This document shows positions 5,695 through 15,658 of a stretch of DNA of 64,000 nucleotides, piece after piece (the first letter of the stretch is position 1; every line of letters begins with the position of its first letter). Source of the DNA: Streptomyces sp. Tue 6430. Its GTDB lineage: Bacteria > Actinomycetota > Actinomycetes > Streptomycetales > Streptomycetaceae. The stretch is taken from positions 224,930-288,929 of the forward strand of contig JAKGSH010000003.1 of the NCBI GenBank assembly GCA_021568835.1, in the 5' to 3' direction. Below the pieces are notes generated by a model. The model searched no databases. It was given only the letters and a program-made list of their open reading frames with translations, and was not told the origin of the DNA. A program made the position numbers and the translations under genes.

Positions 5695-6099
5695 ATGGAC
5701 TTCGATCAGCCGCTGCCTCGCGAGGTGAAAGTCCTCGATTCGGCCTCGCTGTTGAGGCTGGAGGAGCGGGCGTGTGGCCTCAGCCTGAACCAGCGGTTGG
5801 ACCCAGCGTGGGTGCGAGCGAATGCGGCGCCCGACGGAACCCACTACCTGTGGCCGGCCCTGTGGAACAGCCTGTCCCACCGCCCGGACGTTCCACGTCA
5901 GCTGCGGTGCGAGCTGCTGATCTCTCTGCGTGCGGGAGACCGCGTGATGAGCCTGCTGGACGTGCTTCCCGACGACTTCACCCCGCTGCCGAGGGTGACC
6001 TCACGCGAAGAAGGCATGCAGGTCAGCCGGCTCCTTGACCGTGCTCCTTCGGTCCGGGAATGGCTACTGCGGGAGGGCGAGGGCTCGGGTCGGCCGTGA
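5695..6099 (+). CDS. IS passenger protein of unknown function
   Basis: A 134-residue protein starting MDFDQPLPREVKVLDS. It is soluble and acidic to neutral, with Trp/Leu-rich central helices (THYLWPALWNSLSHRP) and an Arg-rich end. It lies entirely inside the IS ends, and its last 36 bases overlap the 3' end of the transposase gene on the other strand. I recognise no domain. IS5-type elements normally carry only the transposase, so this gene is either a true passenger or a regulator of transposition. A GGGG run just before the ATG may serve as ribosome binding site. Confidence 0.5.
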   Translation: MDFDQPLPREVKVLDSASLLRLEERACGLSLNQRLDPAWVRANAAPDGTHYLWPALWNSLSHRPDVPRQLRCELLISLRAGDRVMSLLDVLPDDFTPLPRVTSREEGMQVSRLLDRAPSVREWLLREGEGSGRP

Positions 6100-6908
6100 C
6101 AGGCGTCGCCAGCAGATGAGTGCGCATCCCAGGGTGAGGCAGGCTTCGCGGATGTCGTCGCGGATCTCCCAGCGGATCCGCAGGCGGCGGAACCAGTGCA
6201 GGTGAGCGAAGGCGCGCTCGACAACCCAGCGCTGGGTGCCGAGTCCGGAGCCGTGATCGGTGCCGCGTCGAGCGATCAGTGGCTTCACGCCGAGCGCGCG
6301 GACGAGGCGGCGGTACTTGTCGTGATTGTAGCCGCGGTCGCCGAGCACGACGTCGGGGCGGCGCCGAGGCCGCCCGCGCTTGCCCCGCACGGGCGGCACC
6401 GCCTGGAGCAGTGGAATGAGCTGGGTGACGTCGTTGCGGTTGCCGCCGGTCAGGATGACGGCGAGCGGGATGCCGGTGGCGTCCGTGATCAAGTGGTGCT
6501 TGCTGCCCGTCCTGCCCCGGTCGACAGGGCTTCGTCCCGTCTCGGGGCCCCTTTTAGCGCCCGGATGTGGGAGCCGTCGACCGCCGCCCTGGAGAGGTCC
6601 AGGGCGTCCGCGCTGCGGAGCTCGGCCAAGAGTGCCTCGTGGAGCCGAGGCCACACACCGGCCTCGGTCCACTCGGCCAGGCGCCGCCAGCACGTCATGC
6701 CCGAACCGAAGCCGAGCTCCTGCGGCAGGTGTTCCCAGGCGATCCCGGTGTGCAGCACGAACAGGATGCCCTGAAACACCAGCCGGTCCGGATGCCGCTT
6801 CCGTCCCGGATGCCGGACCCGACGTTCAACCTTGGGCAGCAGCGGCTCGATCACCGCCCACAGTTCGTCTTCGACTTCCCACGGCTTCAGCCGAGCCACC
6901 CCGCGCAC
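6064..6908 (-). CDS. IS5-family transposase made by -1 frameshifting
   Basis: GTG at 6908 opens the first frame (MRGVARLKPWEVEDELW...), which carries the first catalytic Asp in AVDGSHI. The second frame has the second Asp in VLGDRGYNHD and the Glu in VVERAFAHLHWFRRL, ending at 6064. The frames overlap at CTAAAAGGGG (complement of 6548-6557). A -1 slip there joins ALK to RGPETGRSPVDRG exactly where family members continue, so this is the usual programmed frameshift and not an error. The fusion is about 281 residues, normal for the IS1031/IS427 groups. It cuts and joins the element ends described for 5626-6967. Confidence 0.85.
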
Positions 6909-9017: not shown

Positions 9018-9033
9018 GCGGAATCGCCACGCG

Positions 9034-9145
9034 TGCGACCGAGGATCCTAGTTGGCGGGTGCTGCTCCCTTTGGTGCACGTTGTTTGCTGGCGGAGGGAT
9101 CTGGTTGGCGGATCTTGAGGGCGATAGTTGGCGGGCCGATATCCG
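9034..9145 (+). repeat. Left end of Tn7-like element with repeated TTGGCGG sites
   Basis: After the terminal TGCGACCGAG come four related motifs: AGTTGGCGGGTGCTG (9050), TTGCTGGCGGAGGGA (9085), GGTTGGCGGATCTTG (9103) and TAGTTGGCGGGCCG (9125). All point inward. Multiple TnsB-binding repeats of about 20 bp are typical of Tn7-like left ends. Confidence 0.7.
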
Positions 9146-9249
9146 CCTTAGTCACGGCGCGTCACTAAGGGTGATGGCGCTCTTTGAATCTCCCCAGGTG
9201 TCGCTCTTGAGGTGGCCAAACCTGCTCAGGTGATCTCCCCACCCTTTGC

Positions 9250-9588
9250 GTGATGCCCGGACGCCCGGAGCGACGTTGTCCGGACGCGCCCCGACATCGG
9301 GGGGACAAGCGACTGCGGACCGCTCCCACCAGAGCGGACACCGTCCGGACACGACCGGCGGACGCGTCCGGCCAAGGCATCCGGTTCGCCTACCAGGCCT
9401 GCGTCCCGCGTCACCTTCTGGGCGTCGCGATCGCCGACGCCTTCACCCGCCTCGCCGCCGAACTCCACCCCGAACCGGAGCCCGAGCCGAACCCGGCCCA
9501 GTCGCCCACGTGCTGCGTGTGCGGCGAGCCCGGCGCCCGCCAACCATCCGCGGACTGGAACGTCTCGCATCGGGCCTCGACGTGGTAG
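9250..9588 (+). other. Doubtful open frame, possible gene remnant
   Basis: A 112-codon frame whose last two thirds look protein-like (FAYQACVPRHLLGVAIADAF, then a Glu/Pro stretch and CCVCGEPGAR with a CxxC). It has no good ribosome binding site and no family I recognise. It may be a broken piece of cargo in the transposon or chance. The rest of the 9146-9663 interval shows nothing else. Confidence 0.2.
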
Positions 9589-9663
9589 CTGGCCCCATCG
9601 ACCAGGCGCCGACCCGCCCCGTGGCCTCGTGATGGGAAGCAGCGGGCGGGGTTGTAAGGCAGG

Positions 9664-10005
9664 TCAGACTCTCTCCCAGTACCAATACGAGCAGGGGCCG
9701 CCGGTGACGCAGATCCGCCACATCATCTGGTGTCCCCACAGGGCGGAGGGGAGGCGCTCGTCCCGCCAGGTGCCGCTGCCGTTGTAGTTGGGGATCGGCG
9801 TCTGGCGGTAGCCGTCGATGCTCCACTCCACAAACACGGACCGGCCGTCGGGCTCGGTGTCGCCGATGCCGAACATATGCTTGTTGGGGTCGTAGTAACC
9901 GTACGCGCCCTTGATGACGGCGCTCTCCGCGCTGGCCGTTCCCGCACCAACGCCGGTGAACGTCAGGGCGATCAGGCCGACGGCCGCGATCTGCCTGAGG
10001 TGCAT
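9664..10005 (-). CDS. Small secreted protein
   Basis: A 113-residue protein with a clear Sec signal peptide: basic start MHLRQ, hydrophobic core to about residue 22 and a TASA-E cleavage site near residue 26. The mature part is about 87 residues, rich in Tyr, Trp and Gly (KGAYGYYDPNKHMF, ALWGHQMMW, GGPCSYWYWERV), with two Cys (in RICVTGG and GPCSY) that could form a disulfide. AAGGAGA precedes the ATG. It resembles the many short secreted Streptomyces proteins of unknown role. Its location as cargo in a Tn7-like element is notable. Confidence 0.65.
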   Translation of the reverse strand: MHLRQIAAVGLIALTFTGVGAGTASAESAVIKGAYGYYDPNKHMFGIGDTEPDGRSVFVEWSIDGYRQTPIPNYNGSGTWRDERLPSALWGHQMMWRICVTGGPCSYWYWERV

Positions 10006-10114
10006 GAAAATCTCCTTCTCCGCAGGTGGTTGAGAGCCTTACAAGCTGTCGGACCCGGTGGAAATTCGACAGTTCGGTATGATCCGATTGTCCGTCAACC
10101 CGAATCGGCTCCGA

Positions 10115-10303
10115 GAATCACGCGGCGGGCGGCCACCCGGATTCGACGAAGAGCGGTACAAGAAACGCAACACCGTCGAGCGTGCCATCGACAGGCTCAA
10201 GCAGCACCGGGCGGTGGCCACCCGTTACGACAAGCGCCGCTACGTCTACCAGGGCACCGCCACCGCCACCGCCGCAGCCCTCACTATCTTGCTCCGCACA
10301 TGA
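10115..10303 (+). pseudogene. C-terminal remnant of an IS5-family transposase
   Basis: The frame reads RGGRPPGFDEERYKKRNTV, then ERAIDRLKQHRAVATRYDK, the highly conserved end of IS5-type DDE transposases with the catalytic Glu in NTVERAI. The first two catalytic Asp residues and about 70% of the protein are missing, with no end repeats nearby. It is unrelated in sequence to the intact IS5-type element at 5626-6967. Confidence 0.75.
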
Positions 10304-10319
10304 TCGGCCGGACATGGTC

Positions 10320-10598
10320 CTAGTCCCTTTTGCCTCGGCGTACGAGAGCGACGATCGCGCCGGGTGCCAGGACGATCGCCGCGACGAGCATCACGAGGAA
10401 GGTGGGGGACTCGCCCTGGTAGGAGTCGCTGACCTCCACCTGCGAGGCGAAGAGGCCGGCAACCAGAACGAGGAGGACCGAGACACCCAGAACGATCACG
10501 CCCCACGCCCTGCCGGCCGGGATGCTGCGCATCGGGATGAGCGAGATCGACAGCCAGGCCACCGCGACGACCAACAGCACGGTCAGTGAACCAAACAT
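10320..10598 (-). CDS. Small three-helix membrane protein
   Basis: ATG at 10598 behind GGGAG gives 92 residues, MFGSLTVLLVVAVAWLSISL. Three hydrophobic segments lie at about residues 3-22, 30-52 and 65-84, with a short polar loop (VEVSDSYQGESP) before the last and a basic tail RRGKRD. No family recognised. It is divergent from the AraC-type regulator at 10865, 266 bases away, which may control it. Upstream in-frame TTG and GTG codons are less well placed. Confidence 0.6.
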   Translation of the reverse strand: MFGSLTVLLVVAVAWLSISLIPMRSIPAGRAWGVIVLGVSVLLVLVAGLFASQVEVSDSYQGESPTFLVMLVAAIVLAPGAIVALVRRGKRD

Positions 10599-10864
10599 CA
10601 GCACTCCCAAATCTTCCTTAAGTCACCTCGCATCGCTTCGAAGAACTTAGGACGGATGCAGCACGCGCAATGTGTCATGCGTGCAGGGAACCTTGTTGTC
10701 TGTGCATTGTTGAATGCAGCCTCTGCGCCTCGACCTTGTTGCGTGGCATGACTGGCCTCTGTCATTCTGGTGCCTGGCTGACTGCGCTGGGGGCGACTTG
10801 TGAGGGTAGGAGCCGAGGCGTTACACCGCAGGGCCGACAGCGGGTCCCGACCCGTGCCTGTCCG

Positions 10865-11833
10865 GTGAGCCCCATCCTGGACACCACCTCTGTTCCACCG
10901 CGAGACCGGGAAGAGGTGGTCCGGTACGCCGTGTGGGAGTCCGTCGTACGGATCGATATCGAACACCATCTGCCGCCCGATGACCTCGCGGTGCACATCG
11001 GGCTGGATACCGTAGGGCCCATCGGAGTCTGCTCGGCGCGAGCGACTGCGCTCACTATTCAGCGGACTCCGCGGCTGGCGCGAGAGGACGTTGAGCCGGC
11101 CGTCTTCCTCGGCCTTCAGGTGACCGGGACCAGTGTGGTGGTGCAGAACGATCGCGAAGCCCTGCTGAAGCCGGGAGACTTCGCCCTCTACGACACGTCC
11201 GCCCCCTACACCCTCCTCTTCAATGAGGGGGTCGACCAGCACTTCCTCCGTTTTCCCCGCGCGGCACTCGCGCTGCCTGAGAGCTCGCTCCGGGGTATCA
11301 CCGCGGTAGCCTTCGCTTCCGACAACCCTCTTGCTCGTCTGGCCTCTGCCTACTTTCGCCAACTGGCCGTCAGCGAGGAGCTGCACCGGGGCCGGCCCGC
11401 CGAAGCGGTCGTGGAGCCCAGTGTCGAACTCGTCCGGGCCGTCGTGGCAGCCCAGGTCGGAAAGGAGGACCTGGCCCGGGGACCACTGGCGGAAACACTT
11501 GGCCTGCGCATCACGCAATACATACGGGCACACCTCGCAGATCCCGACCTGTCGGCGGCGCGGATCGCCGCCGCGCACGGCATTTCGGTCCGTCATCTCT
11601 ACACCGTGCTGGCCCGGTCGGGTATCAGTCTCGGAGACTGGATCCGCACGCACCGGCTGGCGGAATGCAAGCGGGAGCTGGCCGCCCCACAGGGTCGGCA
11701 CAAGACCATTGCGGCGGTGGGGCGAAGCTGGGGCTTCGCCGACGCGACCCACTTCAGCAAGGTGTTCAAACAGGCCTATGGCATCTCACCGCGGGCCTGG
11801 CGCGACCACAACTGCCCCCACCCCTCCGCCTGA
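10865..11833 (+). CDS. AraC-family regulator
   Basis: GTG at 10865 gives 322 residues. The N-terminal half is the AraC-binding-like cupin found in FeaR/NphR-type regulators (RYAVWESVVRIDIEHHLP, LLKPGDFALYDTSAPYTL). The C-terminal 100 residues contain the two helix-turn-helix units: LSAARIAAAHGISVRHLYTV and KTIAAVGRSWGFADATHFSKVFKQAYGISP. Family members activate catabolic or efflux genes in response to small aromatic or amine ligands. The nearest candidate target is the divergent membrane protein at 10320. It is cargo of the Tn7-like element. Confidence 0.85.
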   Translation: MSPILDTTSVPPRDREEVVRYAVWESVVRIDIEHHLPPDDLAVHIGLDTVGPIGVCSARATALTIQRTPRLAREDVEPAVFLGLQVTGTSVVVQNDREALLKPGDFALYDTSAPYTLLFNEGVDQHFLRFPRAALALPESSLRGITAVAFASDNPLARLASAYFRQLAVSEELHRGRPAEAVVEPSVELVRAVVAAQVGKEDLARGPLAETLGLRITQYIRAHLADPDLSAARIAAAHGISVRHLYTVLARSGISLGDWIRTHRLAECKRELAAPQGRHKTIAAVGRSWGFADATHFSKVFKQAYGISPRAWRDHNCPHPSA

Positions 11834-12020
11834 TGTCGTTCTGCCCGTCGCCGCACGAATACGTCGTCATCGACCAGGACCGGGCGCTGCTGGCGCTCCT
11901 GGTCGCGGCCGACGACTGAGCCCGAGATCGTTCACGAAACTGCGGACAGAACCAAAATTCGAGATCCGCATCAAGGGTGGCGACCACGTGTTTGGCGAGG
12001 TCTTCGAGAGCCCTGGGGTG

Positions 12021-13386
12021 TGTCAATTTAACGGCCGATTTTGGTTGTTGAGGTTCAGTTGTTGGCCGGGGTGAGCCGACCCTCGAAGGCGATCTGGAAC
12101 GCGTTCAGGGGTGCCTTCCAGCGCATGGTCCACCGCTTGCGGCCCTTGCCCGTCGGATCCAAACTCATCAACGCCATGTAGACGCACTTGAGGGCGGCGG
12201 CCTCGTTCGGGAAGTGTCCGTGGGCGCGGACGGCCTTGCGGATGCGGGCGTTGACGCTCTCGATCGCGTTCGTGGAGCAGATGACCTTGCGTATCTCGAC
12301 GTCGAAGGAGAGGAAGGGCACGAATTCGGCCCAGGCGTCCGACCACAGCTTCACGATCGCCGGATACTTCTTCCCCCACGCCTCCTGGAACTCCAGGAAC
12401 CGCTCCGTCGCCGCATCCTCGCTGGGTGCGGTGTAGACGGGCTTGAGGGCCTTGGCGACCTTGTCCCAGTCCTGACGGGCAGCGTAACGGAACGAGTTCC
12501 GCAGCAGGTGAACCACGCACGTCTGGACAATCGTGCGAGGACAGACGGTCTCCACGGCCTCGGGAAGGCCCTTGAGCCCGTCGCAGACCAGCATGAGCAC
12601 GTCGTCCAGGCCGCGGTTCTTCAGCTCGGTGAACACGTGCAGCCAATATTTGGCGCCCTCGCCGCCGTCGCCGACCCAGATGCCGAGGATGTCGCGGGTG
12701 CCGTCCACGGTCACGGCCATCACCACGTAGATGAGGCGGTTCGCGACCTGCCCGTCCCTGATCTTGACGTTGATGGCGTCTACGAACAGGACCGGGTAGA
12801 CGCGATCGAGAGGGTGGTTCTGCCATTCGGCCATGCCGTCCATGACCTTGTCGGTGATGGTGGAGATGGTCTGCTTGGACACCTCCGCCCGTAGACCTCG
12901 GCGAGGTGCGCGGCGATCTCCCCGTGCGTGAGGCCCTTCGCCGAGAGCGACAGCACCATCTCGTCGACACCGGTCAGACGGCGCTGCCGCTTCTTGACGA
13001 TCTGCGGCTCGAAGGTGCCGGCGGTATCACGGGGCACCTTCACCTCCACCGGCCCGACATCGGTCAGCACGGTCTTCGCCCGGATGCCGTTGCGGCTGTT
13101 GCCGTTGTTCTTCCCCGCCGGATCGTGCTTCTCATAGCCGACGTGGTCGGTGATCTCGCCTTCCAGAGCGGACTCCAGCACCCGCTTGGTCAGCTGCTGC
13201 AACAGCCCGCCTTCACCGGTCAGCTGCAGCCCCTCGTTCCGAGCCCGGTCCACCAGCATCGCAACGAGCTGCTCGTCCGACACCGCGCTCGACGGTGCCT
13301 GCACCTGCTCGGACTGCTCGTTCTCCACGGCGGTCTCCGTCATCAGACGCATCTCCTTGATCATCAGATCCGCCGTTGATTGGACA
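12021..13386. mobile_element. IS256-family insertion sequence
   Basis: A 1366-bp element whose ends are imperfect inverted repeats: left TGTCAATTTAACGGCCGATT, and right, read inward, TGTCCAATCAACGGCGGATC. It contains one Mutator-type transposase. No 8-9 bp target duplication is evident, and the sequence left of it does not continue the tnsA gene found on its right, so insertion was probably followed by a deletion. The interval 11834-12020 before it holds no recognisable gene. Confidence 0.75.
12055..13343 (-). CDS. IS256-family (Mutator-type) transposase
   Basis: ATG at 13343 follows AAGGAGATGCG and gives MTETAVENEQSEQ. The N-terminal part has the typical LLQQLTKRVLESALEGEITDH and GNSRNGIRAKTV motifs. 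The DDE residues lie in FVDAINVKIRD, MLVCDGLKGLPEA and STNAIESVNARIRK. One base is missing near 12888: an added G in the complement of CGCCCG turns VYGRRCPSRP into VYGAEVSKQTIS and joins the halves. Corrected length is about 430 residues, normal for the family. The enzyme would be functional if the shift is a sequencing error. Confidence 0.85.
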
Positions 13387-13656
13387 CTCCCCCTCCAGGC
13401 CGGGACGATGCCGCCGCTTCGCCCGCCAGGTGAACCCCCGCACCGGCCGGGACGACAGCACCGGAACGTGAGCCATGTCGCGGACCGGCCAGCAGACCTC
13501 GCCGGCACCCACCCGCCACGTCGAACTCCACCGAGACATCCAGTCATCCGCGAGGTCGAGTTGATCCCGAAATGCGGCATCCCCGCTGTACGCTGCGACA
13601 AGCTCGTCGAGGCGACTCGAGTCCGACCGGATCCTTGCCCTGGCTATCTCGCTCAC
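13387..13656 (-). pseudogene. tnsA-like endonuclease gene, 5' fragment
   Basis: GTG at 13656 opens about 90 residues before the IS256 end. The stretch WRVGAGEVCW, then PVLSSRPVRGFTWRAKRRHR and PGLE, resembles the N-terminal part of the TnsA-like heteromeric transposase endonuclease of actinobacteria (PVR-F-----Q---PG---). Catalytic residues lie further downstream and are lost. Its position 116 bases inside the right end and its inward direction match tnsA in Tn7-type elements. The family call rests on a short stretch, so context carries much of the weight. Confidence 0.5.
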
Positions 13657-13734
13657 TCACCCACAGCACCACCACCCGGGTGGCGACAAGGCCCGATCTT
13701 CGGAACTGACCACAACACAGCGTTACGGAAGCAG

Positions 13735-13782
13735 GATCCGCCAACTACTGCGCTCGTCCGCCAAGTAAAAATCTCGGTCGCA
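13735..13782 (-). repeat. Right end of Tn7-like element
   Basis: Read inward from 13782 the end is TGCGACCGAG, then TTACTTGGCGGAC (complement of 13757-13769) and CAGTAGTTGGCGGATC (complement of 13735-13750). These match the left-end motifs in sequence and orientation. Confidence 0.7.
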
Positions 13783-14349
13783 ACGCGCACGGGCCGACGA
13801 GCCCGGCCGCATGGCTCTCCGCCGCGATTCGGGTGCGATTCGGGTCCGGCCACCGTCCCGGAGCACGATCCACAGGGCCCGGGCCCACGGCATCACCGGA
13901 CCACGGTCGGATACGACACCCGGGCCCCGAGGCACCGACCGGAGGCCGGCGCTCGCGCCCCGGGACGGTGTCGCGTTCCCGGACCGGTCAGCGGTCCGCG
14001 GGCGAGGGCGAGCGGCACGGGGAACTCCACCCGCCGAGGGTGACCCGGCACCGTGGATCGGCGGGGGAGGCGCGGTGCTCAAGCGCGCACGCTGCGAAGG
14101 GTGGATGCTTGAGGAAGCCTGGAGAAGCGGGGGCAGCACGTTGCGGCTGATCGTTTTCAGGGGAGTGGCCGCCCGCGTCGCACCCGCTCTCGGTGGTGAC
14201 GCCCGGCTCGCGGGTCTGCCGGGGCGGTGCTGAGGCACGATCCGGGTTTTTCGGAGTCCGGCGGTCCGAGGACGTCGAGAACGTGCCACCGGCTCCGTCC
14301 CCGGGACATCGGCCACCGCCGGCCGCACGAGGAAGAAGGAGGAACCGGC
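13783..14349. other. Gap without recognisable gene
   Basis: It starts with the ACGCG target duplicate of the Tn7-like element. Open frames here are GC-driven and match nothing I know. AAGGAGG at its end serves the VOC gene. Confidence 0.4.
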
Positions 14350-14790: not shown

Positions 14791-15658
14791 GGAGGAGAAA
14801 CCGAGCCGTCCGGCCGAACGACATCATCGGGGCTCTGAACCGTCCGAGCGGCCAGGAACTGCCTGCCCGTGACGTGATCCGCCCGGCCCACACCGCCAAG
14901 GACGCAACCCCGCGCAACACACCGATCGCCTTCACCTGGAGCGGGTGGAGCGGGTGGAGCGGGTGGAGCGGGTGGAGCGGGTGGAGCGGGTGGAGCGGGT
15001 CGCACATCGCCACGTGTACGACGAAGAACGCGCCCGGACTCTCCTGGCCACCCTCACGCACAGGCGCCTGAAGCGACGGCATCCGAATGAGGCATTCCAG
15101 GGAGTCCGGAGAACCGTCCTGCTTCGGCTCCGCCGCCCACCCTGGGGGCAGGGCGCGGCTTTCGACGGCCACGGGCGGTACCGGCCCGGGCCAGGACCAC
15201 GTCATGCCGTGATGCCTTCCACGTCCACCACCGGCAACCCCGTCGAGCAGGGTGCAGCCGGCCGGCCAGTGAAGCCGGTCAGCCAGCCATTGCAGCCTGG
15301 CGCCGGATGCGCTGTCCCGGGAGGTTCCGCCGATGAGTTTCCGGTGGTCGTGCGGTCCACCCTCCGACGAAGGGAGCGCACCATGCGCGAGATCATCGTT
15401 GGCTCGCACCTGCCGTATTTGGGGGCGGGGCAGGCCCGCCGTCCACCGACGGGAGAGCGGGCCGGCCGTGGGCCGCATGGTGCCGCCGGTGTGCGCGCGG
15501 CGGCCGGAGCCGCGGCCCGGCGCTCGCCGGTCCTCCGGGCGGGCGATGCCGCCCTCGCCGGGAGGACGTCGCCGTGCTCGACGGGAGTACGTCGATGAGG
15601 ATGCCGCCGGTCCGGCCTCCCCCGTCCCCGTGGTGCCGCAGGCAGGACCACGCGCTCC
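14791..15658. other. Long gap with 9-bp repeat array
   Basis: 868 bases between the VOC gene and the 3' end of the acyl-CoA ligase gene. Apart from the GAGCGGGTG array at 14939-15000, I see no conserved frame, RNA gene or clear terminator. Open frames on both strands exist because of the high GC but look random. Confidence 0.4.
14939..15000. repeat. GAGCGGGTG tandem array, about 7 copies
   Basis: Nearly seven perfect copies of a 9-base unit. Being a multiple of three, it stays open in several frames (Trp-Ser-Gly, Glu-Arg-Val, or Pro-Pro-Ala on the other strand), but none belongs to a gene I can support. Confidence 0.85.

Follow-up and report, generated by a model that had tools for sequence, protein, structure and literature searches.

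Positions 9034-13782 of the 64,000-bp stretch of the Streptomyces sp. Tue 6430 genome analysed here (the whole stretch is called the window) make up a defective Tn7-like transposon that has likely lost its core genes through a deletion associated with an IS256-family insertion sequence (IS), a reading to which we assign a probability of about 0.9; the segment is a real element and a derivative of a known kind. It measures 4,749 bp, and both termini read TGCGACCGAG inward and are of the TG...CA type, with ACGCG outside each end (9029-9033 and 13783-13787), a 5-bp target duplication as is characteristic of Tn7-like transposons. An initial annotation had pointed out the matching ends and their flanks, and these are exact at 9034 (plus strand) and 13782 (minus strand): when the host genome (8.18 Mb, 10 contigs) was scanned for TGCGACCGAG-N8-TTGGCGG without mismatches, just these two places were found, while allowing up to two mismatches added two further places as compared to five for a control with the reversed pattern.

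The left end (9034-9139, plus strand) was recognized at an E value of 5.3e-23 by a profile made from six left ends and the right, tnsA-side end (13721-13782, minus strand) at 6e-19 by a profile made from ten right ends, the window's own end being included in both cases. TTGGCGG occurs 13 times on both strands of the window, five of these inside the two ends. The left sites at 9052-9058, 9105-9111 and 9128-9134 occupy positions common to the left ends of related elements in an alignment, and the two right sites lie at 13758-13764 and 13738-13744. Of the four left sites originally counted, three thus stand, while the fourth, GCTGGCGG at 9087-9094 (plus strand; TGGCGG at 9089-9094), is doubtful as it is present in only two of nine compared left ends, those of the window and of an element from Streptomyces sp. 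NBC_00057. Several sites per end in an asymmetric distribution, three conserved left and two right, are likewise a hallmark of Tn7-like elements, and the window sites are probably TnsB-like binding sites. The predicted role of TnsB is to bind them and to link the ends to target strands cut in a staggered fashion, which would give rise to the 5-bp duplication; cleavage of the other strands is predicted for TnsA and selection of the target for TnsC together with a TniQ protein.

In other Streptomyces, these ends enclose tnsA-tnsB-tnsC-tniQ, which bears out the assignment to Tn7-like elements already made in the initial annotation. One TnsA of the family used as query led to seven loci in named Streptomyces genomes, six of which encode, one after the other, TnsA (273 residues), TnsB (about 762), TnsC/TniB (about 427) and TniQ (about 600-640). 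At the seventh (L026 in genome G298), the TnsC match covers only 393 residues, and there is no TniQ in the 3.7 kb remaining on the contig. The right end lies 126-127 bp ahead of the tnsA frame in six of the seven loci, L024 being without a recognizable right end; distal ends were located by inspecting the neighbouring stretches. In G272, the element comprises 7.5 kb with little beyond the four genes between its ends. When the proteins of the relatives were scanned, TniB/TnsC and TniQ cleared the Pfam cut-offs, and a relative's TnsB matches solved TnsB chains (E 9e-8). The closest relative that we found resides on a plasmid of strain NBC_00057 (L163), with 11.5 kb between its ends and genes annotated as TnsA-like, transposase, TniB and TniQ. 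Its ends, tnsA and tniQ tail resemble the window copy (right end 97% identity over 71 bp, tnsA side 94.5% over 325 bp, left end 81% over 140 bp), from which it differs in having all four genes, in an insert of about 5 kb that splits the right end from tnsA and in being plasmid-borne. The left ends of this element and of one on an S. tendae plasmid share 81-83% identity with that of the window over 140 bp; the latter corresponds to the left-end match in genome G027 at 258487.

The order of features in the window, i.e. left end, nested block, tniQ tail, IS256, start of tnsA and right end, follows the ancestral order of the NBC_00057 type minus its middle part. A tnsA-like fragment inside the right end had been noted before and is real, although its left limit had to be moved from 13387 to 13392, the IS256 boundary being 13391/13392. 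The open reading frame (13213-13656, minus strand) encodes 147 residues, and residues 1-90 as query retrieved 18 homologues, one of which, from S. anulatus, is named TnsA-like heteromeric transposase endonuclease subunit. In the alignment, homology runs to residue 88 and is followed by IS256 sequence. The tnsA 5' remnant at 13392-13656 on the minus strand (residues 1-88, coding 13393-13656), identified by homologue search and alignment, is 75% identical to intact TnsA, so that the comparison with TnsA proteins proposed along with the earlier reading turned out positive. The motifs FESLEE, HIPDF and LDVRP, which are conserved in intact TnsA proteins and presumably contain the catalytic residues, are gone. 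At the other side of the IS, only 40 bp of the gene for the TniQ-domain target selector, which is complete in the relatives, are recognizable. This tniQ 3' remnant (11976-12015, minus strand; 35 of 40 bases identical to the NBC_00057 TniQ tail, E 5e-9) encodes RALEDLAKHVVAT, as compared to RALEDHARHLVAT in NBC_00057, and directly abuts the IS. Genes for TnsB and TnsC were not found within the element, whereas relatives with the same ends carry both, and we therefore class the window copy as a defective derivative and not as an autonomous member. The initial annotation had reported neither the tail of tniQ nor the IS256 copy.

The IS256-family element extends from 12016 to 13391 (minus strand, boundaries taken from plasmid-borne IS256 copies) and its transposase is spread over two frames. 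We looked for an 8-bp duplication at its edges and found different 8-mers; this, together with the split transposase, is consistent with a deletion that started at the IS. The copy probably descends from an element of the NBC_00057 type, with right end, tnsA, tnsB, tnsC, tniQ and left end, from which an IS256-associated deletion likely removed tnsB, tnsC and the greater part of tniQ, the IS now joining the tnsA and tniQ remnants. A block of 2.8 kb (9174-11972) would then have been inserted beside the tniQ 3' end. A direct repeat of 7 bp, AAGGGTG, borders it (9167-9173 and 11973-11979), and the left end and tniQ tail of NBC_00057, where they are uninterrupted, match the window on both sides of it, which makes a later insertion likely. 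The nested block contains genes for a putative secreted protein (9664-10005, minus strand; 113 residues, no family match, signal peptide recognized by eye), for the C-terminal remnant of an IS5-family transposase (10058-10303, plus strand; NCBIfam transpos_IS5_3, E 2e-12, under the cut-off), for a putative small membrane protein (10320-10610, minus strand; 96 residues, sub-threshold matches only, membrane nature judged by eye) and for an AraC-family regulator (10670-11833, plus strand; AraC_binding_2 and HTH_18, with the FeaR model under its cut-off). The secreted protein, the membrane protein and the AraC regulator had been listed as cargo; they do lie inside the element, albeit in this secondary block and not in the ancestral body. 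One phage record matched, over 5% of the element's length within the part occupied by IS256, and was disregarded.

An empty site in relatives, which the initial annotation had predicted, was sought in 120 genomes including the host by using as query the joined flanks of 600 bp each with one ACGCG between them. In three relatives (L070, L071 and L073 from genomes G040, G024 and G032, respectively), the alignment crosses the junction and ends 21-24 nt past it. In a control with element sequence replacing the right flank, it stops before the junction (at 583, 599 and 589 of 600), and of 400 random right flanks drawn from the window, 0, 0 and 2 scored at least as high as the real one, although alignments continuing for 15 nt or longer beyond the junction were seen with 6, 10 and 4 flanks. 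The comparison thus supports an empty site for the window element in these three relatives. A search for a motif resembling the argC operator (see below) at the window insertion gave no match, and a TnsB search of the host genome returned a sole match of 62 residues at 40% identity, which we do not regard as a helper, and no full-length TnsB. Having both ends intact, the window copy could in principle be moved if TnsABC and TniQ were provided in trans. Outside the element, the window contains a short tandem repeat at 14936-15005 that is read as runs of WSG, VER or PPA in overlapping open reading frames, and an IS5-like transposase (6064-6908, family assigned by eye) in two overlapping frames, which may represent a natural frameshift.

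Target duplications were tallied for the 18 elements with both ends located, including that of the window. Nine have an exact 5-bp duplication: the window copy (ACGCG), the elements in G023 (ATGGC), G225 (ACCTC) and G180 (GCCGG), a miniature (CGTGT) and a complete element (CTGGG) in G297, a miniature on the FR1 plasmid (GCAGT) and the elements on plasmids of S. clavuligerus (ACGGC) and strain NBC_00724 (GCTGC). The repeat is 6 bp long in G301 and comprises 5 bp shifted by one base in G272, and four of five bases match in G299, in G132 (right end damaged and placed by hand) and in the NBC_01244 miniature. No duplication was seen in the remaining four cases, i.e. G036, the G169 miniature, NBC_00057 and NBC_01707 (right end damaged). 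Elements with one end only or a truncated second end were left out (G022, G027, G059, G068, G078, G113 with a weak second end, G218, G232, G241, G246, G264, G266, G295, G296, G298, G300, G384 and G427), and so was G444, which was also excluded from the argC counts given below. In the latter genome, a right and a left family end are situated back to back, two bases apart (L155:3029-3196) and 1.7 kb from argC, representing a tandem insertion or a remnant. In G132, the right end (L103:14293-17513) is interrupted by about 3.1 kb, and query positions 67-71 recur on either side of the interruption, which looks like the entry of an IS.

Elements that feature both ends but not the full gene set include, apart from the window copy, those in G225 (10.4 kb) and G132 (5.3 kb), both at argC, the 2,455-bp element in G023, the 2,746-bp element on the S. 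clavuligerus plasmid, in which tnsA is the only transposition gene found, and the 4,001-bp element on the NBC_00724 plasmid with one gene for a protein of 1,195 residues. The longest gene in the G023 element encodes a phage tail sheath-like protein of 430 residues (L020:13794-15086). Four miniatures of 221-223 bp are present in G297, which also holds a complete element, in G169 and on the NBC_01244 and FR1 plasmids, and are 68-80% identical. They have the features of miniature inverted-repeat transposable elements (MITEs): two ends, no transposase gene, homologous copies and a duplication, which is exact in two of the four, matches in four of five bases in one and is absent from one. A 222-bp query matched 30 of 392 genomes, weak internal matches included, and five new left-end places were read. 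Exact duplications combined with missing genes suggest that the short derivatives were moved in trans, the miniatures likely by the same machinery as the complete elements. Bacterial MITEs likewise consist of two ends, and copies of 221-223 bp have no room for a transposase; the miniatures described here differ in that their ends are Tn7-like arrays of TnsB sites.

These short elements bear on the history of the window copy, which could also have arrived already non-autonomous, as a deletion derivative formed elsewhere and moved by a helper TnsABC-TniQ. Four miniatures of about 222 bp and the three elements of 2,455, 2,746 and 4,001 bp, the latter with perfect duplications, all have intact ends, suggesting that elements lacking the gene set are mobile. 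Still, a single IS256 flanked by what is left of the two terminal transposition genes, as in the window copy, is consistent with decay in place and calls for no second move, and we consider a prior loss of the genes possible, though the less probable course. Membership in the Tn5053/Tn402 (TniABQR) group instead of the TnsA-bearing Tn7-like group appears very improbable. That group shares TG...CA ends, 5-bp duplications and TniB and TniQ proteins with our family; it is defined by TniA, TniB, TniQ and a resolvase and by the lack of TnsA, whereas the relatives encode TnsA beside TnsB, the window keeps a piece of tnsA and TnsB matches TnsB chains (a resolvase was not looked for). GC-rich DNA yields many short repeats, so that the ends might be suspected to be fortuitous or unrelated inverted repeats flanking ordinary genes of the chromosome; with the exact pattern unique in the genome, homologous ends in the same architecture elsewhere and remnants of tnsA and tniQ adjoining the ends, this is practically negligible.

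Several observations weigh against a defective Tn7-like transposon decayed by IS256-associated deletion. The window tnsA fragment has no match in Pfam or NCBIfam, intact TnsA and the rve domain of TnsB stay under the Pfam cut-offs, a TnsA profile matched no solved TnsA, and a TnsA structure model (predicted local distance difference test score 34.5) was too poor for use. The edges of IS256 lacking a duplication, the route of the deletion is only inferred. NBC_00057, the presumed parental type, has a right end split by an insert and no target duplication. The empty-site alignment is short (21-24 nt) in species at about 85% identity, and five relatives with long left-flank matches (L072 and L074-L077) stop 43-64 nt short of the junction. 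Finally, the host assembly is listed as 85.5% complete, so that a helper could be missed.

When 392 genomes of the genus were searched with the window right end (111 bp), 20 matched, the host included, and in 12 of them the match is directly upstream of argC (G281 and G392 were read via G299 and G300, with the same contig numbers and coordinates). No argC was present in the stretch read for the other eight, i.e. the host, G023, G068, G078 (3 kb only), G232, G246, G264 and G266. With five elements found by other routes (G295, G297, G298, G301 and G036), the elements at argC amount to 17. All of them end 27-31 bp ahead of a TTGCAT...CGTATAGTCATGC stretch that is conserved upstream of argC, damaged ends having been placed by hand within one or two bases. 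The end facing argC is the right one in 16 cases and the left one in G297. According to PMC3293853, the S. clavuligerus argC operator consists of two 18-nt ARG boxes 2 bp apart, and ARG boxes are also listed for argC of S. coelicolor. The conserved stretch is likely the argC operator, and the fixed spacing points at a candidate attachment site. In the host, the motif is present at argC as TTGTAT and there is no element in the 10 kb read. It is plausible that the window lineage chooses another target than the argC type because TniQ from NBC_00057 is divergent, being only 30-33% identical to the eight other TniQs compared, which are 44-89% identical to each other. The element on the NBC_01707 plasmid has an argC-like TniQ (82%), arguing against a simple relation between TniQ and target. 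On the whole, judging from sequence comparisons, we lean towards a family with a TniQ homing to the argC operator and inserting about 29 bp outside of it, a plasmid lineage with a swapped, divergent TniQ and derivatives down to 222-bp MITEs that would be mobilized in trans, the window copy being itself mobilizable.

Some members carry further noteworthy genes. The argC-site element in G301 includes a complete Gabija pair, GajA and GajB, as cargo (L063:3006-6634, PADLOC), and a gene for a Druantia DruE-like helicase is situated downstream of tniQ at the G295 locus (L023:17551-20583), whose distal end was not found, so that the gene is a possible part of the element. Second TniQ-like coding sequences, 29-39% identical, occur inside the elements of G036 (L154:3489-5171) and G180 (L111:19562-19810) and perhaps provide a second target selector. 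In both NBC_01707 (L165:16955-20945) and NBC_00057 (L163:11038-20071), genes for a P4-type primase and DUF6009 proteins are located about 1-9 kb from the right end, a neighbourhood that possibly represents a plasmid target region.

The wider family is more interesting than the window copy. Streptomyces now has a family with defined ends, a candidate site at fixed spacing upstream of argC and miniature derivatives that would provide ready-made minimal substrates. As two natural TniQ types that share 30-33% identity occur with nearly identical TnsAB, target choice by TniQ can be tested by a swap, and the family could give site-specific insertion tools for Streptomyces. As at least one complete relative carries the Gabija pair, it may also spread defence genes. 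In the literature searched, outside of which lie most subscription papers and preprints, we found no description of argC as a site for Tn7-like elements or of a Tn7-like MITE. Papers that came up in this context concern, among others, plant MITEs, tools for vertebrates and a case with a MITE next to another transposon and an unrelated Tn7 relative.

Among known systems, Tn7 from E. coli (TnsABCDE, attTn7 at glmS), treated in part in PMC10293859, passages of which make no mention of argC, has the same combination of TnsA plus TnsB, TnsC and a TniQ-domain protein and likewise features asymmetric arrays of TnsB sites and a 5-bp duplication. Sequence identity is low, and the window's relatives reside upstream of argC or on plasmids. 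The family likely belongs to the same broad clade as the Actinobacteria-dominated Tn7-like elements of Benler et al. 2021 (PMC8649781), no member of which, according to that paper, had been experimentally characterized as of 2021; argC, Streptomyces and the term nonautonomous do not appear in its main text. Tn7706 from Rhodococcus erythropolis, as described in PMC12915292, is also actinobacterial and also combines tnsA, tnsB, tniQ and tniB with inverted repeats; it differs in its size of 19.4 kb and in being multicopy and plasmid-borne.

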